Shown one piece after another: positions 8,644 to 37,233 of a stretch of DNA of 64,000 nucleotides. Below the pieces are notes generated by a model that was not told where the DNA came from, did no database searches, and was given only the letters and a program-made list of their open reading frames with translations. The DNA is from Silvibacterium acidisoli (lineage in GTDB: Bacteria > Acidobacteriota > Terriglobia > Terriglobales > Acidobacteriaceae), in NCBI GenBank assembly GCA_022870745.1, contig CP085323.1, forward strand, positions 3,162,001 through 3,226,000, given 5' to 3'. Made by a program: the position numbers and the translations under genes. Positions within the stretch are counted from its first letter, which is position 1. Every line of letters starts with the position of its first letter.

Positions 8644-10338
8644 CTATTTTCCGGTCTCGGCGATGTAAACCGCAAAGGGAGCTAGAGTCATGCCCTTCGC
8701 GGATACATTCCTCGCGGCGGACGGAGTCGCAAGCAGCGTGTTGAGGTGCCTCATGCTTTCGCCCTGCTTCGATAGGTCGAGGTCGACCTTTTGCGGTGAG
8801 GCCGACATGTTGAGCGCCACAAGCACTGACTTGCCCTTGTAGCTTCGCAGATAGGCCAGCACATTCGGGTCGCTGTTGTTCAGCGAAGTGAAATCCCCTT
8901 CGATGAGCGCCTCGTTTGTGTGACGCAGTGCAAGCAGGCGCTTGTAGAAATTGAGAATCGAGTTGGGATCTTTCAGCTCTGTTTCAACATTGTGCGTTTT
9001 ATAGCTTGCCGGAACCGGCAGCCATGGCTTGCCCGTGGTGAATCCCGCGTTGGCTGACGTATTCCACTGCATCGGCGTGCGCTCGCCGTCGCGGCCCTTA
9101 TTCTGTGGCCAGTTGTTCTTGCCCAGCGGGTCAAGCACGTCTTCCTTGCGCTTAGGATCGTTGTTTTCCATGCCAAGCTCTTCGCCGTAGTACATGATCG
9201 GCGTGCCGCGCAGTGTCAGGTACATGCCGGCCATCAGCTTTGCGATCTCGTCGTTGTGCTTGCCGTCGCCATAGCGGTTGTAGGAGCGAGTCATGTCGTG
9301 GTTGGTGATGACCCAAACCGGCCACTCGCCCGAGCTCTCCGCCTGATTGATCTGGGTGCGGAACTTCGAAGCAGAAAGCACGTTGATGGTAGTGAAGAGG
9401 AAGTCCATTGGCATCTGGATCTCGTCGTCATGGGGGCCGTAATACTCGTGCAACTGGTTAATGTTCTCCGTCCACGTCTCACCGATCAGCACGGCATTGC
9501 TCTCGTCGGCGACTTTCCGCAGCCTGCGCAGCACCTCGTGGTTCTGCGGCAGCTTGTCGTTGTATTTGTTGATCATCTCCTTCGTGCCGTCGCTGTTGGT
9601 CTTGAAGGGGTTGTCGCGGAGCTGCGGATCTTCAAAGAGCGTGTCTACTGCATCGAGGCGGAAGCCCGAGACGCCGCGCCTGTACCAGAAGCGCGTGGCA
9701 TCGAACATCGCCTTCTCCACCGCGGGGTTGCGCCAGTTCAGGTCAGGCTGTGCCGCTTCGAAATAGTGGTAGTAGTACTGTCCTGTCTTCTGGTCGAATG
9801 TCCACGCGGGGCCGCCGAAGTCCGACTCCCAGTTGTTCGGAGGCTGGCCACCGGGTTTGGCATCATGCCAGACATACCAGTTCCGATATGGCGATGTCTT
9901 CGAAGAACGCGATTCGAGAAACCATTTGTTCTGATCAGAGGTGTGATTGATCACGAAGTCGAGAATGATGCGGATGTGATCCTGCTTCGCCTGCGCCGAA
10001 AGGCGATCGAAGTCGGCAAGTGTGCCATACATCGGATCGATGTTCTGATAGTCGGCGACATCGTAGCCGAAGTCCTTCTGCGGGGAGGGAAAGCATGGGG
10101 TGATCCAGATCGCATCGACGCCGAGCGCTTTCAGATATCCCGTCTTCGATGCAATGCCGTTCAGATCGCCGATGCCATCGTTGTTGCTGTCAGCGAAGCT
10201 GCGCGGATAGACCTCGTAAAAGACCGCATGACGCCACCACGGGTGACCCTCCGCATCAACATTCTTCATGGCGGTTTGAGCAGAAGCGAGCGCCGGAGCG
10301 AGTGCAAGCAGGGCCGCAGCGATTCCGTGTTTCAACAT
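8644..10338 (-). CDS. Secreted GH13 alpha-glucosidase / alpha-amylase family enzyme
   Basis: The 564-residue protein starts with a signal peptide (cleavage near LASAQT) after an AAGGAG site. The GH13 (beta/alpha)8 barrel shows all conserved regions: DFVINHTSD, GFRLDAVD with nucleophile Asp229, LIGETW with acid/base Glu287, and TNHD with Asp348. The YEVYPRSFADSNNDGIGDLNG start and the PMQWNTSANAGF segment are typical of the oligo-1,6-glucosidase/alpha-glucosidase branch, which releases glucose from short alpha-glucans. Export places it in the periplasm or outside the cell. It starts 26 bp after the debranching-enzyme-like gene, so the two form an operon controlled from the 13.0-kb divergent region. 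Confidence 0.92.
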   Translation of the reverse strand: MLKHGIAAALLALAPALASAQTAMKNVDAEGHPWWRHAVFYEVYPRSFADSNNDGIGDLNGIASKTGYLKALGVDAIWITPCFPSPQKDFGYDVADYQNIDPMYGTLADFDRLSAQAKQDHIRIILDFVINHTSDQNKWFLESRSSKTSPYRNWYVWHDAKPGGQPPNNWESDFGGPAWTFDQKTGQYYYHYFEAAQPDLNWRNPAVEKAMFDATRFWYRRGVSGFRLDAVDTLFEDPQLRDNPFKTNSDGTKEMINKYNDKLPQNHEVLRRLRKVADESNAVLIGETWTENINQLHEYYGPHDDEIQMPMDFLFTTINVLSASKFRTQINQAESSGEWPVWVITNHDMTRSYNRYGDGKHNDEIAKLMAGMYLTLRGTPIMYYGEELGMENNDPKRKEDVLDPLGKNNWPQNKGRDGERTPMQWNTSANAGFTTGKPWLPVPASYKTHNVETELKDPNSILNFYKRLLALRHTNEALIEGDFTSLNNSDPNVLAYLRSYKGKSVLVALNMSASPQKVDLDLSKQGESMRHLNTLLATPSAARNVSAKGMTLAPFAVYIAETGK

Positions 10339-28461: not shown

Positions 28462-28935
28462 TCATTGTGCGGCAGTGAGCTTTTCGAGAACGCGCAGCAT
28501 CGCGATGCGATTGTGCCGCTGTACCGCAATGCAGGGAAGATTCGCCAGCAGTCCATATGCAGTCATGACCCAGCAGGCCCAGGGCGGATTCCAGAGATAA
28601 AAGATCGGAGTGAAGGCAAGCATGCACCAGTGCGCCATCTCTCCGCGACAAGTCTCCGCGATGAATCGACGAGTATAGGAATCGTCGCGTTTCTCATAAT
28701 GTGCCTTTGCAAAGCCGCCAAGCCAGGGCGCACCATCCGGCATAAGCTGTTTCCAGCGCCGGATTCGCAGGATGTGCGTGTAGAGCCTTCCATCCCTTTC
28801 CCATCTTCGCGGTCTGCAAGCGAAGCTCGTCGGAGAGAAGTTCCTGGAAGGCATCCTGAGGAAAAGTTTCGCGATGCCGATCTGGATGACTGGCCATCCA
28901 AGAAGATTTGCCGTCAGGACGATTGCAGCTTTCAT
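28462..28935 (-). CDS. crtO: Glycosyl-4,4'-diaponeurosporenoate acyltransferase (CrtO family)
   Basis: ATG at 28935 overlaps the crtQ stop as ATGA, so translation is coupled; ATG at 28953 would add six residues. The 157-residue protein matches the short Staphylococcus CrtO family along its length: GWPVIQIGIAKLFLRMP, WERDGRLYTHILRIRRWK, GEMAHW, and AYGLLANLPCIAVQRHNR. It has membrane-spanning segments at both ends. CrtO esterifies the glucose of glycosyl-diaponeurosporenoate with a fatty acid, the last step of staphyloxanthin formation. It is the last gene of a five-gene coupled operon. The acyl group used here is unknown. Confidence 0.85.
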   Translation of the reverse strand: MKAAIVLTANLLGWPVIQIGIAKLFLRMPSRNFSPTSFACRPRRWERDGRLYTHILRIRRWKQLMPDGAPWLGGFAKAHYEKRDDSYTRRFIAETCRGEMAHWCMLAFTPIFYLWNPPWACWVMTAYGLLANLPCIAVQRHNRIAMLRVLEKLTAAQ

Positions 28936-29996
28936 ACCTCGCGACCACGCCATGTAGGCCGCTGCCTGCGAATCCGCCGGGTAAGAGAGATGCTGAAAAG
29001 CGTGAAGTAGAAGACGAGGCCGACTGGGTAAAGCACGCTTGTTAAAAAGCGGTAGCTGCCAAGCTTGCGTCCGAAATGTGCAATCTGCAAGACAAAGCAA
29101 ACATACAAGAGAGCGAAAAGCCAGTGGTGCGTGCCCATCAGTCCAAGAAATGCATCGAGGCCTGCTGACAACCATAGGATCGATAACGCCAGCACCTGAG
29201 GGGAGCATTGCACCGCTCCGGAAGCGAATGCTTTCGTCCAGCTTTCGCGCAACTGCTCGAAGCCCTCGGGAAACATTCGTGTCCAGAGCACGCCGCGGCC
29301 GGCGATGGTGCGGCAACGATATCCGGCCTGGTTGAGACGCTCAGACATCGCGAAGTTCTCAAGAATGTATGAACGAACGCTGTCGTGTCCGCCGCAGGCC
29401 TCATAAGCGTCACGGTTGATAAGCAGCGACTGTCCGAAGAGATGAGGGCGATCAACAGGTCCAAACCCACCTGCCCCCATTGCCACCAGGATATGAAAGA
29501 ACAGAGAGAGTTCTTCATACCACTCTTCAGTCTGGTGATAGGGAAGAATCGAGACAACAATGCGTTTATCATCCATCCCATCGAGAGAGCGCAGAAGTCG
29601 AAGGTATCCTTCTTTCGCAAAACGCGTATCGGCATCGAGGAAGAAGAGAAACTCGTTGCCGGACGCCAGCGCCCCCTGGTGGCATGCCCAGTTCTTTCCT
29701 GTCCAGCCCGCGGGCAGCGGCGGCGGAACGATAACATTAGCGCAGAAACTGCGCGCGAGATCTCCTGTACCGTCAGTCGAAGCATCGTCGACTACCAGGA
29801 CTTCGTGTCGCGACGCCGAGATGTTCCCGAGCGATTGCAGCAAAGCCGGCAGGTTATGAGCTTCGTTTCTCGCAGGGATGATGAAGCTGGTTGGCCTGTC
29901 GATGATTCCCGGAGCCCCATTGCACATCGGGACACGCCACAACAGCAGAAAGCCGGCGGCGAAACCCGTCACGCACAGGGCCGCCAGCAGGATCAC
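28932..29996 (-). CDS. crtQ: Diaponeurosporenoate glycosyltransferase (CrtQ-like, GT2)
   Basis: GTG at 29996 is chosen: it overlaps the crtP stop as GTGA and has AGGA upstream. This gives 354 residues. An N-terminal membrane anchor precedes the GT-A core with SFIIPARNEA, VVDDASTDGT and the DxD-type FLDADT. Later come GHDSVRSYILENFAMSERL and two to three C-terminal membrane helices. In Staphylococcus, CrtQ glucosylates the carboxyl end of 4,4'-diaponeurosporenoate. Its place between crtP and crtO makes that assignment strong, though the sugar donated here could differ. Confidence 0.87.
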   Translation of the reverse strand: MILLAALCVTGFAAGFLLLWRVPMCNGAPGIIDRPTSFIIPARNEAHNLPALLQSLGNISASRHEVLVVDDASTDGTGDLARSFCANVIVPPPLPAGWTGKNWACHQGALASGNEFLFFLDADTRFAKEGYLRLLRSLDGMDDKRIVVSILPYHQTEEWYEELSLFFHILVAMGAGGFGPVDRPHLFGQSLLINRDAYEACGGHDSVRSYILENFAMSERLNQAGYRCRTIAGRGVLWTRMFPEGFEQLRESWTKAFASGAVQCSPQVLALSILWLSAGLDAFLGLMGTHHWLFALLYVCFVLQIAHFGRKLGSYRFLTSVLYPVGLVFYFTLFSISLTRRIRRQRPTWRGREV

Positions 29997-31504
29997 TTTT
30001 CTGCGTCCTGTTCTGTGATGAGCCGCGCCACGTGCTGCCCGCACAGTGTAACCATCGGCATGCCACCGCCGGGATTCACACTTCCCCCTGCGAAAAACAG
30101 ATTGCGATAATCTTTGCTTCTTTTAGGAGCCTTGAAGGCAAAGTTCTTCCACCGATCTGAGACCACCCCGTAGATCGATCCGCGATTCGAGTAGTAACGC
30201 TTCTCGATATCGAACGGAGTCCAGAAGTCTTCCACCACAATATGCTTGCGCAGGTCGGTCAGCCCCATCCGCTCCAGCTTATCGAGGCACAGTCCTTTCA
30301 GCGCAATATAGTCTTCACGCGTATAAGCGTGCTTATCGTTGATGTACGGAATATGCGGCAGGATCTTAATGTTGTCGCATCCGGAAGGCGCTTGCGATGG
30401 GTCTGTTCGCGTTGGCGCAACCAGGTAGATCGTTGGATCGTCGGGAAGCTTCTTCTCGTGAAAGACGCGATCGAAATGCCGGTGCTGATCCTTCGAATAA
30501 AAGAAGTTGTGATGCGCAAGCTGCGGGTAGACGCGATCTGTGCCGAGGTGCAACACGATGCCGGAGCAGGAAGGTTCATACTTGTTTACCCTGCGCATGC
30601 GTGAAGCTGGTTCCTTTAACAGTCGTTGCATCGCGGGAATGACTTCCATGTTGGAGACAATGTAGTCCGCTTCGATGCGGTAGCTCTCTCCATTTGCCGT
30701 GCCCTGCACTGCCGTCACACGATCGCCGGCCTTTTCTATATTCGTGACTTCGTGATGGAGACGAAGCTCAACGCCGGTTTCACCCAGCCGCTTTACAAAC
30801 GCTTCCGCCAGCCGGTACAAGCCGCCGCGCACGTACCAGAGTCCGAACTCCATCTGAATGTTCGGCATCAGGTTCATGAAACCAGGCGCATCGGACGCGG
30901 AAGATCCGACGTACTTGATGAAGTATTCAAGTATGCTGCGCAGGTAGGCGTTGCGAACCCGTTTAAAGATACTTTTCGACATCGTCCCCATGTAATCCAG
31001 GCCACGCGCATCTTGCAGGCCATAGAAACGAACGAAATCGAAAAAGGTATCCAGCCCTTCACGGAAATAGCCCCGCTCTACGATCTCGTATTGCAGCCGC
31101 GAATATTTGAGGAAGTCGACATACTCTTCGTATGCGCCGGGGCCGAAGCGCTCAAGCTCCTTGCGCATCTGTTCGGGCTTCTCGTACAGATCGACGACAG
31201 TGCCATCCTCAAAGAAATTCCGCCACTGGGGATCGATGCGCTCCAACGGCACGTAGTCCTCAAGGGTCTTTCCGCTGTTCTCAAACACGGGCCGAAAAAT
31301 CTGCGGCAGCGTAAATATGGAAGGCCCCAGATCGAAGCGAAATCCCCTTTCTTCGAGCAGGTTCAGCTTGCCCCCGGCATTGCCGTTCTTTTCGAGGATC
31401 GTCACTCGAAAGCCGTTCATCGCCAGCATGATTGCGGCGGACATTCCCCCCAGTCCCGCACCAATCACGACGACATGTTTGTTACGAGTAGAAGGCTCAG
31501 GCAC
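29993..31504 (-). CDS. crtP: 4,4'-diaponeurosporene oxygenase (CrtP, carotenoid desaturase superfamily)
   Basis: The 503-residue flavoprotein has an N-terminal FAD-binding VVIGAGLGGMSAAI and stretches close to Staphylococcus CrtP: FIKYVGSSASDAP, YVRGGLYRLAEAF, QLAHHNFFYS, MGLTDLRKHIVVEDFWTP, and the C-terminal GGSVNPGGGMPMVTL. CrtP oxidises the terminal methyl group of diaponeurosporene to the aldehyde. The 8-bp overlap with the upstream aldehyde dehydrogenase gene and the GTGA overlap with crtQ show a single coupled transcript. The neighbouring dehydrogenase would take the aldehyde to the acid, giving the substrate of CrtQ. Confidence 0.9.
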   Translation of the reverse strand: MPEPSTRNKHVVVIGAGLGGMSAAIMLAMNGFRVTILEKNGNAGGKLNLLEERGFRFDLGPSIFTLPQIFRPVFENSGKTLEDYVPLERIDPQWRNFFEDGTVVDLYEKPEQMRKELERFGPGAYEEYVDFLKYSRLQYEIVERGYFREGLDTFFDFVRFYGLQDARGLDYMGTMSKSIFKRVRNAYLRSILEYFIKYVGSSASDAPGFMNLMPNIQMEFGLWYVRGGLYRLAEAFVKRLGETGVELRLHHEVTNIEKAGDRVTAVQGTANGESYRIEADYIVSNMEVIPAMQRLLKEPASRMRRVNKYEPSCSGIVLHLGTDRVYPQLAHHNFFYSKDQHRHFDRVFHEKKLPDDPTIYLVAPTRTDPSQAPSGCDNIKILPHIPYINDKHAYTREDYIALKGLCLDKLERMGLTDLRKHIVVEDFWTPFDIEKRYYSNRGSIYGVVSDRWKNFAFKAPKRSKDYRNLFFAGGSVNPGGGMPMVTLCGQHVARLITEQDAEK

Positions 31505-33359
31505 CGGTATCCACCAATTTCACTGAAATCGTCTGACGGCTCCCTTTGAGTGCGAAGACGCAATCGCCAAAGCGCGGCGGACCCATTCGCGGAGCCGGGT
31601 TATTCGAAGCTCCTACCGGCTCCTTCGGAATTCCGATCAGGCTCTTATCCAGCTTGCGGTTGCCGTTCGTGTCTTCGTATACGGTGACTGCGTAACTCGC
31701 CGGCGGCAACAACCCTGCGTCGATCATCATCGCGGTTGCGCCACCTCTGACAGCAACAAATCCGCCCTTCAGCGCTTTGGAAGGAGTGTCTGGAAAGCCT
31801 GTCTTCGAGGAGAAGATAAGGTATCCGAGTTCACCATGCGCGGCGGCGGGTAGTTGAACGTTGATGAAGAGATGCGCAGCTGGGGGCGATTCCGAATAAA
31901 GCACCGGCGTCGCCAGCAAAATAAATGCCGCCGGCAGCAGATGACGAAGCCGTTGCATCAGCCCCTGGTTGCGATGACGAAACGAAATCAGCTTGTGCAG
32001 TGCGGCGTAGGTCTTCGCAGTAAAAGGGAACCAATGTATTTCGCGGGGCTTCGTCTCTTGCAGTGTCATGACCGTCTTTGTGCGCGAGAACGTGTATAGC
32101 CCCTGCGGTCCACGATATCTTCCGTATCCACTGTCGTTGTTTCCACCGAATGAGGCGTAAGGATTTCCAATATTTCGAATCACGTCATTGATGGAGATAT
32201 TTGCAGCATGCAGTAAGTTAGCGATCTGTTCAGCGCGCCGGATGTCTTTCGTCCATATGCTGCATGTCAGAGACTGCCTGCTGCTGTTCGCGCCCTTGAT
32301 CGCCTCGGACACATCGCGAAACGGCGCTATGCAAAGGACAGGTCCAAAACAATCTTCAGTAAGCAGCCGTGCGTTCTGCGGAACATCCGAAAGGATAATG
32401 ACATCGTCCGTTTCCGCAGTCAGGCGGACAGCGCCTGCCTGCAGGGCCTCTTCGACTTGAGCATCGAGGCGGATCTTCTGGTCGTTGCCAATGAGGCTTC
32501 CGATATCAGCATCGCGTCCAGTGCCGCTGCGTAACGTCTTCGCTCGCGACGTGAGCGCGTCGAGCATGCGGTCGTATACGCGGTTTTCAACGTATAGCCG
32601 CTTCGTGTTCACACACACCTGGCCGGCATTGGCGAAGGCTCCGTAGAGGATTCCTTCCACCGTGCGATCGAAATCGCAGTCAGAAAAGACGATGGCCGCA
32701 TCTTTCCCCCCGAGTTCCAGCGTGATCGGGATCAGGTACTGCGCTGCACGCGCGGCAATGCTTCGTCCATTCACAGTGCTCCCTGTAAAGAAGATTACGT
32801 CGGGTCGTGCGTCGATCAACGCGGAGGCATCTTCAGGGCGGTCCGCCACCACCTGCATCAGCCCTTCAGGCAAACCTGCCCGCTCACACAACGTCGCAAT
32901 CGCCCGCGCGGTGCGAGGCGTTCTTTCAGAGCACTTCAAGACAACGGCGTTGCCCGCGTACAGCGCAGTCAACGCAGGCAGCAGCGAAAGCTGAAATGGG
33001 TAGTTGTAAGGCGCGAACACCAGCGCTACGCCATGCGGCTCGCGTCGTTCTTCGAAGCACGCACCTGAGTACAGAATTGCGGGCTTGTCTATCTTCCGCG
33101 TTGACAGCAGCCGCGGAGCGCTTGCCTCGTAGTAGCGCATTTGCTCCAGCGTGACCATCAAGTCGCCGGAGAGCGCATCGAGCGCCGGCTTGCCTGTATC
33201 CGCGGAAATGATCTCCACCAGTTCATCCACTTCGGCAGCAATCAAGTGCCTCAGCTTCTTCAGTACTCGACAGCGCTCGCGTACCGGCAGCTTCGCCCAT
33301 GGAGCCTGTACTTTTCGCGCCAGGCGCAGCCGTTCCTCAGCCAGAATGAACTCGGTCAC
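31497..33359 (-). CDS. aldH: Aldehyde dehydrogenase fused to a DUF2141 domain through a membrane segment (carotenal oxidation)
   Basis: Residues 1-~455 are a complete aldehyde dehydrogenase: Asn119 in PYNY, FFTGSTVNGR, Glu215 in LELGGKD, and catalytic Cys249 in NAGQVCVNTKR. The ALDH C-terminus runs straight into a hydrophobic segment (residues ~471-488) and then a DUF2141 domain (~495-620) with its typical YEDTNGNRKLD and IGIPKEP motifs. The internal Met468 (codon 31956-31958) begins what looks like an ordinary signal peptide and has AGGGG a few bases upstream. The domain might therefore also be made separately. In context the enzyme would oxidise 4,4'-diaponeurosporenal to the acid. Its start overlaps the crtN-like stop as ATGA. 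Confidence 0.87.
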   Translation of the reverse strand: MTEFILAEERLRLARKVQAPWAKLPVRERCRVLKKLRHLIAAEVDELVEIISADTGKPALDALSGDLMVTLEQMRYYEASAPRLLSTRKIDKPAILYSGACFEERREPHGVALVFAPYNYPFQLSLLPALTALYAGNAVVLKCSERTPRTARAIATLCERAGLPEGLMQVVADRPEDASALIDARPDVIFFTGSTVNGRSIAARAAQYLIPITLELGGKDAAIVFSDCDFDRTVEGILYGAFANAGQVCVNTKRLYVENRVYDRMLDALTSRAKTLRSGTGRDADIGSLIGNDQKIRLDAQVEEALQAGAVRLTAETDDVIILSDVPQNARLLTEDCFGPVLCIAPFRDVSEAIKGANSSRQSLTCSIWTKDIRRAEQIANLLHAANISINDVIRNIGNPYASFGGNNDSGYGRYRGPQGLYTFSRTKTVMTLQETKPREIHWFPFTAKTYAALHKLISFRHRNQGLMQRLRHLLPAAFILLATPVLYSESPPAAHLFINVQLPAAAHGELGYLIFSSKTGFPDTPSKALKGGFVAVRGGATAMMIDAGLLPPASYAVTVYEDTNGNRKLDKSLIGIPKEPVGASNNPAPRMGPPRFGDCVFALKGSRQTISVKLVDTGA

Positions 33360-34885
33360 GCGATTGCCAATTCTGCGAAGGATTTTGCCCGGGGATATTT
33401 CACTGCATATTCTTCACAGATCAGGTTGGAAGAGATGCGAGCTGATTCAAAGATGGTAGGCAGGCCGCTACCCGGATGCGTGCCGCCGCCTACCAGATAG
33501 CAGTTTGAGAACTCTTCAAAGCGATTGTGCGGACGCAGATAGAGCATCTGCTTCCAGTCATGGCTCATGTTGAATGTCGCGCCAAGATAAACGGAGCGTT
33601 TTTCCCAATCCGCCGGAGTCACGATCATCTCTTCGCGAATATGCTTGCGGAAATCTCTGTAAGGCGTGCGCTCTTCCATCAACTGAAAAATACGTTCGCG
33701 ATAAACGCTCTTCTGCGCTTCCCAGTCGATCCCGCTCGTGTTGTTCGGAACCGGTGCAAGAATGTAGAGCGCTGAGTGACCAGGAGGAGCGACCGAAGGA
33801 TCGGTGACAGCAGCATTCCGAATGTAAACAGAAAGATCTTCCGAGATCACCTTGTTCTTCGTGATGTCCGCGAGGCATTTCTTGTAGTCTTCGGCAAACA
33901 GGATCAGGTGATGTTGCGTATCGAAGGTCCTGTCCAGGCCGAGATAGATCATGAAGGTCGAGCAGGAAAACTTCCGCTTCTGCATATCCTCTTGCGTGTA
34001 CTTGCGAAGATCCTTCTGGTCGAAAAGTGTGCTGACCGCAGTGCCAAAATCGGCGTTGATCACTACGTCGTCACAAAGCACGCGTTCACCATTTTCGAGT
34101 TCCACGCCGCACGCCTTGCGGCCATCCAGCAGAACACGGCGCACACCGCAGGAGGTATGAATCTCAGCACCCTCTTCCTTCGCGACCGCAGCCAGCGCAT
34201 CGCTGATGCGGCAGAGTCCGCCTTGCACGTGATACACACCATGGGCGTGCTCCGTATAGGGGATCATCGCAAACAGCCCAGGACAGTCCCACGGCGACAT
34301 TCCCAGGTATTTCGACTGAAATGTAAACGCGAGCCGCAACTCTTCGGGCCGGAAGTAGTCCGCCAATACCTCATAGAGCGAACGTCCCGCAGCGATATGC
34401 GGCACCGCTGAGAAGAGCGTCGGACTCACCATGCTGGTGATCGTTCCATAGGGCTGCTGCAGACATGGATAGAGCTTGCGGAACCGCTCGCTCTCGCGGG
34501 CCAGAAAACGATCGAGCCCCGCACCTTCACCGGGAAAGGCCTTCTCGATCTCGGCCTTCATATCTTCCGGCTTCGATCGCGCCAGCATGCTCTTGCCCGG
34601 AAAGCTCAACTCGTACATGGGGTCGAGAGGCCTGCAGTCGAGGTAATCGCTGAGCTTGCGGCCACCTTCCTCGAAAAGCTCATCGAGCAGGAACTTCATC
34701 ATAAGAAAGGTTGGTCCAAGATCGAAGCGGTAATCTCCAAGTGTGACCTCGGCATTTCGTCCGCCGGTTACCTTTTCTTTCTCGAAGATCTGGACGCGGA
34801 AACCACGCTGGGAAAGAATCATTGCGGCCGCTAGTCCACCAGGGCCGGCGCCCACAACTGCGATATGTCTTTTATTCATTCCCAT
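33356..34885 (-). CDS. crtN: C30 carotenoid desaturase (CrtN-like phytoene desaturase family)
   Basis: The 509-residue protein shows the dinucleotide-binding VVGAGPGGLAAAMI, GGRNAEVTLGDYRFDLGPTF, a FQSKYLGMSPWDCP segment, YHVQGGLCRISDAL, and the C-terminal signature YLVGGGTHPGSGLPT of carotenoid desaturases. As first gene of an operon encoding CrtP, AldH, CrtQ and CrtO it most likely desaturates a C30 precursor (dehydrosqualene or squalene). Starts at ATG 34885 or 34879 are both possible; neither has a strong ribosome site. No crtM or hpnCDE is present in the window, so the precursor is supplied from elsewhere. The upstream 212 bp carry paired direct repeats. Confidence 0.8.
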   Translation of the reverse strand: MGMNKRHIAVVGAGPGGLAAAMILSQRGFRVQIFEKEKVTGGRNAEVTLGDYRFDLGPTFLMMKFLLDELFEEGGRKLSDYLDCRPLDPMYELSFPGKSMLARSKPEDMKAEIEKAFPGEGAGLDRFLARESERFRKLYPCLQQPYGTITSMVSPTLFSAVPHIAAGRSLYEVLADYFRPEELRLAFTFQSKYLGMSPWDCPGLFAMIPYTEHAHGVYHVQGGLCRISDALAAVAKEEGAEIHTSCGVRRVLLDGRKACGVELENGERVLCDDVVINADFGTAVSTLFDQKDLRKYTQEDMQKRKFSCSTFMIYLGLDRTFDTQHHLILFAEDYKKCLADITKNKVISEDLSVYIRNAAVTDPSVAPPGHSALYILAPVPNNTSGIDWEAQKSVYRERIFQLMEERTPYRDFRKHIREEMIVTPADWEKRSVYLGATFNMSHDWKQMLYLRPHNRFEEFSNCYLVGGGTHPGSGLPTIFESARISSNLICEEYAVKYPRAKSFAELAIA

Positions 34886-35394: not shown

Positions 35395-36368
35395 TGGTGA
35401 TCTCTTTGAGATCCGGTTCCCGGATTTTCGGTGTTCTGCTGGCAGCAGTGAGCTTCACCTTACCCTCACTGCCTGCCCAGCAGGGCAGCCCGGCGGCAAA
35501 CCACCCGGTTCGCACAGAACGCAGTCTTGCCGTAGGTAGCGCACAGTTGCAGGTTAAGCTGGCCGAAGGCCATCTGGACGCCGGCGATAGCGCCATCTTC
35601 GAATGGGTCCAGAGAGCAGCGAAGGCCGTTTCGCTCTACTACGGATCCTTTCCTCTGAAACAGGCGCAGATTCTGGTAGTTCCAGGCGAAGGCCGTAGCG
35701 GAGTCTCTCACGGAACCACCTGGGGAGACATGCAGGGAGCGCCGGGATTCACCCGCATCTCGGTGGGCGAACATACCACCTCGCAGGAGCTTGCCGCGGA
35801 CTGGATGATGACCCACGAGCTCACCCACATGGCCTTCCCAAGCCTTACCCGGGACCATCACTGGATGGAAGAAGGCATGGCCACTTACATCGAGCCGGTC
35901 GCTCGCATGCAGGCGGGGCAGCTCTCGCGCGAAGAGTTCTGGAAAGAAACCATTGCAGGCATGCCGAATGGCGAGCCTGCTTCCGGCGATGAAGGGCTCG
36001 ACCGCACCCATACCTGGGGTAGAACCTACTGGGGCGGAGCGCTGTTCTATCTTGTGGCCGACATCAGCATCCGCCAGCAGACCGGCAACCGCAAAGGCGT
36101 TGAGGATGCTTTCCGGGGTATTGTTGCCGCCGGTGGAACCATCGATCACGACTGGCCGGTAGAGAAAGTTCTCGAAGCAGGAGATCGGGCCACCGGCACG
36201 CCGGTTCTCACCAGGCTCTATCGCAAATGGAGCCAGTCGCCGGAGACGGTTGATCTCGATGCGCTATGGAAGGATCTGGGCGTCCAATCCATACAGGGAG
36301 AGATTCATTTCAACGAATCGGCAAAGCTGGCCGCCGTTCGCCGCATGATGGAGCAGCCCTCCCGCTAA
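35394..36368 (+). CDS. Exported HExxH metallopeptidase-like protein
   Basis: ATG at 35394 overlaps the preceding stop codon (TGATG). The 324-residue protein has a signal peptide (SRIFGVLLAAVSFTLPSLPAQQ). It carries the zinc-binding helix HELTH at residues 141-145, followed by WMEEGMATYIE, where the glutamate near residue 160 would be the third ligand, as in gluzincin peptidases such as M1/M61-type enzymes. The length is short and no PDZ or beta-barrel domain is present. The substrate is unknown. It converges with the anti-sigma gene, overlapping its end by 4 bp. Confidence 0.75.
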   Translation: MVISLRSGSRIFGVLLAAVSFTLPSLPAQQGSPAANHPVRTERSLAVGSAQLQVKLAEGHLDAGDSAIFEWVQRAAKAVSLYYGSFPLKQAQILVVPGEGRSGVSHGTTWGDMQGAPGFTRISVGEHTTSQELAADWMMTHELTHMAFPSLTRDHHWMEEGMATYIEPVARMQAGQLSREEFWKETIAGMPNGEPASGDEGLDRTHTWGRTYWGGALFYLVADISIRQQTGNRKGVEDAFRGIVAAGGTIDHDWPVEKVLEAGDRATGTPVLTRLYRKWSQSPETVDLDALWKDLGVQSIQGEIHFNESAKLAAVRRMMEQPSR

Positions 36369-36616
36369 TTCTCAGGCGGTTCTTCGCGCATCGCCTCGTC
36401 GAGCCTCGCATGCAGCCGCTCGCTGAAGCCGACCGGCAGCTCGAACACGCGATCGTCTGCCGTCAGAATGAGAATATTCCGCGTTGAGTCGAGAACGGCG
36501 GAGCAGATCTCGCAGGTCTCCAGATGCCGCTGCACCATCTCCCGTACGGCAGGGTCTAGCGTGCCGTCAATGAACCCGGAGATGTGTTCCCAAACATGTT
36601 TACAGTCTATGACCAT
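36365..36616 (-). CDS. Zinc-finger anti-sigma factor (ZAS type)
   Basis: The ATG at 36616 has an excellent AAGGAGGTG site and gives 83 residues. His31-x3-Cys35-x2-Cys38 is the zinc-binding anti-sigma motif, with Cys5/His7 as likely further ligands. There is no membrane helix, so it would be a soluble, perhaps redox-sensing, partner of the ECF sigma factor encoded just upstream, whose end it overlaps by 10 bp. Such proteins hold their sigma factor inactive until zinc is lost or a signal arrives. The specific signal is unknown. Confidence 0.85.
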   Translation of the reverse strand: MVIDCKHVWEHISGFIDGTLDPAVREMVQRHLETCEICSAVLDSTRNILILTADDRVFELPVGFSERLHARLDEAMREEPPEN

Positions 36617-37233
36617 GAGAACCACCTCCTTCTGGCCGGAGTCATGCTCTTCAGTACCGGGGCCAGTGCTTTCTGCAGCATCATACGTGCACGATGCAGT
36701 CTCACCTTGACCGCTACTTCGCTGATCTTCAGCGCTTCCGCCGCTTCGCTGACGCTGAACCCTTCTACATCACGAAGCAGGAAGACCTGGCGATAAATCT
36801 CCGGGAGCGCCTTTACCGCGTTCTCGAGAAGTGAGCGAACCTCTGCCCGCTCCAGCGTCTCCGACGGAATTTCGCGCCAGTCCACCAGCACAGCGGGAGA
36901 TACAGATCCTGTCTCCGGGTCCGTGTCGTCGAGCGATTCTGTTTTGGCTGTACTGCTGCGGCGAAGCCGGTTGCGCGCCTCGTTCAGCATGATCGTGATC
37001 AGCCAGGTGCTGAACTTTGCATCCGCGCGAAAACCCGCCAGGTTTCTGAAGGCTTTCAGAAAAGCTTCCTGTGCAACATCCTCCGCGTCTGCCTCGTTCT
37101 TCATCATGGAGAAGGCCATAACGTAGACGCTGCGTTCATACGGACGAATCAGCTCGTGAAAAAGCTGGGAATCGCCTGCAACGATTGCGGCAATCATCCC
37201 GGCCTCGTCTCGTGCCTCTGCTGCAATCGCCAT
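36607..37233 (-). CDS. ECF RNA polymerase sigma factor (RpoE-like)
   Basis: The 208-residue protein has region 2 (ELIRPYERSVYVMAFSMMKNEADAEDVAQEAFLKAFRNL), a non-conserved linker, and region 4 (ALPEIYRQVFLLRDVEGFSVSEAAEALKISEVAVKVRLHRAR) with its helix-turn-helix. It would direct RNA polymerase to a small stress regulon. Its ATG overlaps the DoxX stop and the anti-sigma gene overlaps its own end, so the three genes are one coupled unit. I found no autoregulated promoter that I can name. Confidence 0.92.
   Translation of the reverse strand: MAIAAEARDEAGMIAAIVAGDSQLFHELIRPYERSVYVMAFSMMKNEADAEDVAQEAFLKAFRNLAGFRADAKFSTWLITIMLNEARNRLRRSSTAKTESLDDTDPETGSVSPAVLVDWREIPSETLERAEVRSLLENAVKALPEIYRQVFLLRDVEGFSVSEAAEALKISEVAVKVRLHRARMMLQKALAPVLKSMTPARRRWFSWS

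Follow-up and report, generated by a model that had tools for sequence, protein, structure and literature searches.

A predicted carotenal dehydrogenase joined in frame to DUF2141 through a hydrophobic segment in an acidobacterial C30-type carotenoid operon

The 64,000-nucleotide (nt) stretch of Silvibacterium acidisoli DNA analyzed here (assembly GCA_022870745.1, contig CP085323.1, positions 3,162,001 to 3,226,000; hereafter the window) carries a carotenoid operon in which an aldehyde dehydrogenase (ALDH) continues in frame into a hydrophobic segment and a DUF2141 domain (Table 1). The operon order, CrtP-[ALDH-DUF2141]-CrtN-GT2-CrtO, is of the C30-carotenoid type, and the fused gene overlaps its CrtP-like and CrtN-like neighbors by 4 and 8 nt, respectively. 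No internal stop interrupts the 620 codons of the fused open reading frame (ORF), and its two domains are recognized by Pfam at residues 9-430 (Aldedh, E 6e-111, 371.7 bits, above the curated cut-off of 23) and 501-611 (DUF2141, E 5.4e-25, 87.9 bits vs. a gathering cut-off of 24.4). This DUF2141 match is the only one in the genome. The original prediction of a complete ALDH running into a hydrophobic segment and DUF2141 inside a carotenoid operon is thus borne out, and Glu215, Cys249, and Met468 lie where it had placed them.

Table 1. Coordinates of the fused gene, its parts, and the neighboring operon genes within the window.
Feature	Coordinates	Strand	Basis or remark
Whole fused ORF	31497..33359	(-)	620 codons/aa, GTG start
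ALDH domain, residues 9-430, with Glu215 and Cys249	32070..33335	(-)	Pfam PF00171
Post-ALDH tail, WFPF (residue 443) to the residue preceding Met468	31959..32033	(-)	sequence/alignment
Met468 ATG, AGGGG ending 3 nt 5' of ATG; unconserved	31956..31958	(-)	sequence
Hydrophobic segment LLPAAFILLATPVLYS, residues 474-489; signal-anchor or signal-peptide-like	31893..31940	(-)	sequence, charge count
DUF2141 domain, residues 501-611; EDTNGNRKLD motif at 562-571	31527..31859	(-)	Pfam PF09912
CrtP-like gene (crtI family), upstream	33356..34885	(-)	TIGR02734 E 1.6e-130; orthologues
CrtN-like gene (crtI family), downstream	29993..31504	(-)	TIGR02734 E 4.7e-109; synteny
GT2 glycosyltransferase	28932..30044	(-)	PF00535
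CrtO, glycosyl-4,4'-diaponeurosporenoate acyltransferase family	28462..29316	(-)	PF18927 E 1.7e-26, residues 168-279; start may be further in

The fusion is not confined to this genome. Relatives of the whole protein, taken at E <= 1e-90, were found in 26 of 398 genomes of the family, and in 20 of these, including the window's own, the match runs through DUF2141 in one open frame (48-54% identity for the other 19). The fused genes are spread over six genera (g9, ten; g35, five; g3, two; g1, g18, and g65, one each). A search with the CrtP neighbor added four operons without ALDH, and the resulting 30 orthologous operons comprise 20 fused, five with ALDH only (G235, G265, G095, G140, and G251), three with DUF2141 only (G116, G290, and G305), one with neither domain (G226), and one truncated where its contig ends (G234). 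ALDH and DUF2141 never occur as separate neighbors in the 29 readable operons. The comparison of split and fused forms that had been proposed for relatives came out on the side of fusion, and the stop codon or frameshift between the domains that would have spoken against it is absent, with the frame open in 20 genomes. At the same cut-offs, the operon is missing from all eight other sampled genomes of the window's own genus. Two fused loci (L039 and L083, in G122 and G393) show no CrtP match, and a CrtP-like gene with 54% identity lies on another contig.

In a CrtP+CrtN tree, built by a quick method with three distant operons as the root and with 8 of its 30 inner branches open, fused rows occur in every main branch, and rows with ALDH only or DUF2141 only lie nested between them. 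The ALDH-only rows fall at three places, and at least five changes are needed overall; a single clade (SH-aLRT 99) unites the DUF2141-only rows with G226, and the fused G298 and G355 join it in a group of six rows (95). The simplest history is that the fusion has long been part of this operon and came apart afterwards where one half or the other was lost. In the three DUF2141-only operons, a short leader precedes a retained hydrophobic segment and DUF2141; by eye, this leader looks like the beginning of the ALDH ORF and appears to be a remnant of it; in G116, the run preceding the segment also resembles the fused linker by eye. The ALDH-only proteins keep the WFP-containing tail, which is common to the fused gene and all five unfused orthologues, and end before or without the hydrophobic segment, apart from G140, and no DUF2141 match was found anywhere in these five genomes. 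In G140 (L090, near 8831-8930), the ALDH has a hydrophobic C-terminal end without DUF2141, and its frame stops just before the CrtN-like gene. Because DUF2141 can be lost or can outlast ALDH, the two activities are separable, and the fusion would therefore provide co-delivery rather than shared catalysis.

Both halves of the fusion are under purifying selection. The ratio of nonsynonymous to synonymous substitution rates (dN/dS), estimated from six close and non-independent pairs of six genomes (G277, G256, G249, G319, G330, and G245), is 0.08-0.14 for ALDH, 0.04-0.25 for DUF2141, and 0.33-0.51 for the linker. Mean pairwise identity is likewise 58% for ALDH, 55% for DUF2141, and 24% for the linker. 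Though divergent, the linker keeps its frame and its hydrophobicity in all 20 fused genes.

The ALDH half is probably a C30 carotenal dehydrogenase (AldH), with its substrate predicted from context. Its role in carotenoid synthesis is argued from its position in two operon types (the second is described below) and from the ALDH genes beside alphaproteobacterial C30 clusters. All 27 aligned ALDHs (20 fused, five unfused orthologues, and one each from Gluconobacter and Azospirillum) share the catalytic Glu and Cys and the YNYPF Asn without exception. None of the 25 NCBIfam families shown, among 44 matched by the fused ALDH, reached its cut-off; for equivalog families such as succinic semialdehyde and betaine aldehyde dehydrogenases, the best score was 351 bits vs. 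a cut-off of 521. Like AldH of staphyloxanthin-type C30 pathways, which makes the terminal acid (PMC10448405, in excerpt), the enzyme has complete catalytic residues and is encoded in a C30 carotenoid cluster beside CrtP-like, CrtN-like, GT2, and CrtO-type genes. The likeness is one of context and residues, and there are differences: AldH genes are often unclustered according to the same excerpt, whereas this ALDH lies inside the operon and is fused to a membrane segment and DUF2141. No synthase gene was found among the operon genes scanned, and the genome's only two SQS_PSY genes sit together about 2.15 Mb away and look HpnCD-type. The C30 chain length is suggested by the CrtO family and by these two genes. 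Their pairing at that distance fits the squalene (HpnCDE) route to C30 carotenoids (described in the same excerpt), which this genome may well use.

The hydrophobic segment is best explained as a membrane anchor with DUF2141 outside, one of the two outcomes originally proposed. In each of the 20 fused linkers there is a run of 13-23 uncharged residues, and in every one the net charge is higher before the segment than after it: the 20 preceding residues sum to +83 over the 20 proteins (mean +4.2), and those following sum to 0. For the window's own segment, LLPAAFILLATPVLYS, the values are +5 over the preceding 20 residues and -1 after. By charge count, all 20 proteins thus have the single hydrophobic segment and positive N-terminal flank of a type II (N-in, C-out) protein, and under the positive-inside rule this pattern predicts DUF2141 in the periplasm and ALDH inside. 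Standalone DUF2141 proteins of the family are consistent with such a placement, since 25 frames (from 30 loci, with three lacking a motif match and two fused ones set aside) begin, by eye, with signal-peptide-like segments. A similar layout occurs in the eukaryotic fatty aldehyde dehydrogenase ALDH3A2, which acts on a lipid aldehyde and is held at a membrane by a C-terminal hydrophobic segment; the likeness is one of layout only, as ALDH3A2 has no domain after that segment.

A compatible variant of this topology is that signal peptidase cleaves the single translated chain where the segment ends, leaving ALDH anchored by its C terminus and DUF2141 free in the periplasm, so that the fusion would serve only equal dosage and co-delivery. 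The shortness of the segment and the signal-peptide-like N termini of the standalone proteins are in keeping with cleavage, and 11 of 20 fused proteins have an aligned "AQ" after the segment, although the rest of it diverges, which is suggestive of a cleavage site. The window's own protein, however, has no Ala at this place (VLYSES). Cleavage is a real possibility on this evidence, but falls somewhat short of being probable.

Outside the Acidobacteriota, DUF2141 recurs near carotenoid genes, in agreement with the original proposal that ties it to pigment. In Sphingomonadales it adjoins crtG (PMC5989583, PMC9241875, both in excerpt), and the former excerpt states its role as unknown; a marine metagenome correlation table also lists DUF2141, apparently under amino-acid metabolism (PMC3597751, in excerpt). 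The crtG-adjacent gene is alike in placing the same family beside a late carotenoid gene, but the excerpts concern a C40 pathway, a separate gene, and a hydroxylase partner instead of ALDH. Among plasmid records, a separate DUF2141 gene lies in or beside the C30 clusters of four alphaproteobacterial genera. In Azospirillum brasilense and Gluconobacter, it follows GT2 with a 4-nt overlap (order GT2-DUF2141-ALDH in Gluconobacter); in Palleronia, it precedes crtI, also with a 4-nt overlap; and in Microvirga, it accompanies an ABC-2 transporter beside the cluster, about 6 kb from the GT2 gene. These clusters resemble the window's operon in having two crtI-family genes, an acyltransferase, and GT2, with DUF2141 and ALDH nearby. 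They differ in that the genes are split and DUF2141 stands at varying places, and the Gluconobacter and Azospirillum ALDHs are only 30-32% identical to the window's, with an acyltransferase of the lysophospholipid type. In Sphingomonas, DUF2141 overlaps a fatty-acid-hydroxylase-family gene (here called crtG-like).

Several observations accompany these plasmid loci. In Microvirga ossetica (L197, 17022-19629), genes for an ABC ATPase and an ABC-2 type permease come after DUF2141, in convergent orientation to the C30 cluster, and the three could form an export set. DUF2141 directly precedes a carotenoid oxygenase gene in Alisedimentitalea and Variovorax (L157, 6935-8865; L194, 7010-8825), assigned to the RPE65 family in the former and by a 36% tblastn match in the unannotated latter. 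Three Azospirillum species have a sulfotransferase gene after GT2, where A. brasilense has DUF2141 (L198, 12508-13650; L199, 12452-13564; L201, 12510-13628), and Palleronia carries both genes.

Taken together, we favor, with moderate confidence, a single polypeptide that is a type II membrane carotenal dehydrogenase with an optional periplasmic DUF2141 accessory for the finished pigment. In such a scheme, the ALDH domain would work at the inner membrane, on its cytoplasmic face, and oxidize the terminal aldehyde that the CrtP-like oxidase produces on a C30 carotenoid, and the acid would then be glycosylated by GT2 and acylated by CrtO. The single hydrophobic segment, preceded by positive charges, would anchor the enzyme N-in/C-out, hold it at the membrane where its lipid substrate resides, and carry DUF2141 to the periplasm; once inserted, the two halves may be cleaved apart by signal peptidase. 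DUF2141 itself would most likely act on the finished polar carotenoid at the membrane's outer face by holding, shielding, or passing it on, a role in pigment binding or placement that its gene context suggests. More tentatively, DUF2141 may be a periplasmic carotenoid-handling module that was recruited more than once, with the acidobacterial fusion as a transmembrane hand-over device: the carotenal would be carboxylated at the cytoplasmic face, and the tethered DUF2141 opposite would receive, shield, or pass the polar pigment towards the outer envelope.

A number of observations weigh against the type II reading with a pigment-directed DUF2141. The domain is dispensable in the five ALDH-only operons, four of which encode no hydrophobic segment either; an anchor is thus not indispensable. 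In five of six pairs, DUF2141 is under slightly weaker selection than ALDH, and the single-sequence model of the domain was poor (mean predicted local distance difference test score, pLDDT, 48.4) and gave no basis for inspecting a binding cavity. Of 14 plasmid DUF2141 loci viewed, seven are linked to carotenoid genes and seven are not (Comamonas, two Hymenobacter, Roseomonas, Pseudoalteromonas, a second A. brasilense copy, and A. lipoferum), a fraction that is not a statistic because the loci were hand-picked from lists of 12 and 37 records to span genera; a further A. brasilense record shows a cluster already counted and is outside the 14. At the unlinked Roseomonas locus, a gene of the sterol desaturase family lies some 3 kb from DUF2141. 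Counted from the cluster side, DUF2141 is present in or beside six of the 11 plasmid C30 clusters (three from A. brasilense and one each from Gluconobacter, Palleronia, and Microvirga), whereas the other five (A. ramasamyi, A. oryzae, A. lipoferum, Limimaricola, and Indioceanicola) show no copy up to about 9 kb away. Finally, no carotenoid operon was found at any of the 25 standalone acidobacterial DUF2141 loci viewed, a subset of those listed, in scans for crtI family, ALDH, GT2, CrtO, acyltransferase, crtG-like, and carotenoid oxygenase genes that covered mostly 7 kb to either side and in some cases less. Near one standalone copy (L180), there is a single weak, partial crtI-family match (42 bits).

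The standalone loci and the ALDH-only operons could be taken to mean that DUF2141 is a general envelope domain, e.g., metal-binding or structural, that has no carotenoid role and that came to its fused and operon positions by accident, the fusion being kept since the segment helps ALDH. This is rather unlikely. Purifying selection on DUF2141 is nearly as strong as on ALDH, three operons lost ALDH and kept DUF2141, and in other bacteria the family is linked to C30 genes, a crtG-like gene, and carotenoid oxygenases. The condition that had been set against the proposal, a DUF2141 always separate and outside carotenoid operons, is likewise not what was found. The operon copies form one clade, and the standalone loci indicate that DUF2141 is a wider envelope family; carotenoid pathways appear to have gained copies of it on one occasion in Acidobacteriota and, perhaps independently, in Alphaproteobacteria.

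The other outcome originally proposed, that one mRNA gives both the full-length fusion and a DUF2141 protein started at Met468 with a normal signal peptide, found no support and is improbable. The window does have the ATG, with AGGGG upstream as described, but the spacing is only 3 nt, and an ATG stands at this place in just one of 20 fused genes. Three of the 20 linkers have no in-frame ATG, GTG, or TTG at all, and eight have no ATG. Nor does any in-frame start codon in the 20 linkers follow an exact AGGAGG match of at least 4 nt at a spacing of 4-12 nt. The missing Shine-Dalgarno sequence weighs little, because under the same rule a site lies within 42 codons of the first possible start in only eight of 23 long window frames (vs. 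two of 23 interior stretches); the missing start codons weigh more. Since neither Met468 nor its AGGGG is conserved, a conserved second start is unlikely. An assembly error or frameshift that joined neighboring genes is practically out of the question, as the same fusion, with one frame open through both domains, recurs in 20 genomes of six genera.

No report of an ALDH-DUF2141 fusion or of DUF2141 in C30 clusters was found in the literature searched, although domain-architecture databases may list the fusion. That literature likewise yielded no function for DUF2141, and the published carotenoid clue is the crtG neighborhood (excerpts of PMC5989583 and PMC9241875). The parts described here (ALDH, DUF2141, and the operon type) are known, and it is their arrangement that makes DUF2141 testable, because the same protein is a separate gene in the pigment clusters of unrelated bacteria. 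The conserved fusion, the natural loss of either half, and the separate copies in C30 clusters lead to a concrete hypothesis, i.e., the periplasmic handling of polar carotenoids. How bacteria place such carotenoids in the envelope is poorly understood.

Two further observations concern the operon and its surroundings. A second, distant CrtP-ALDH-CrtN operon type occurs in the same family (L136, L137, L138, L139, and L141); its ALDH is unfused, shares 28-31% identity with the window's, and has its own tail after the ALDH domain, and no DUF2141 was seen in the five ALDH-bearing loci viewed. In the window, about 1.5 kb upstream of the operon and on the same strand (36365-37233, minus), lie an ORF that reads as extracytoplasmic function (ECF)-type-sigma-like and a zf-HC2 protein recognized by Pfam, a possible regulator.

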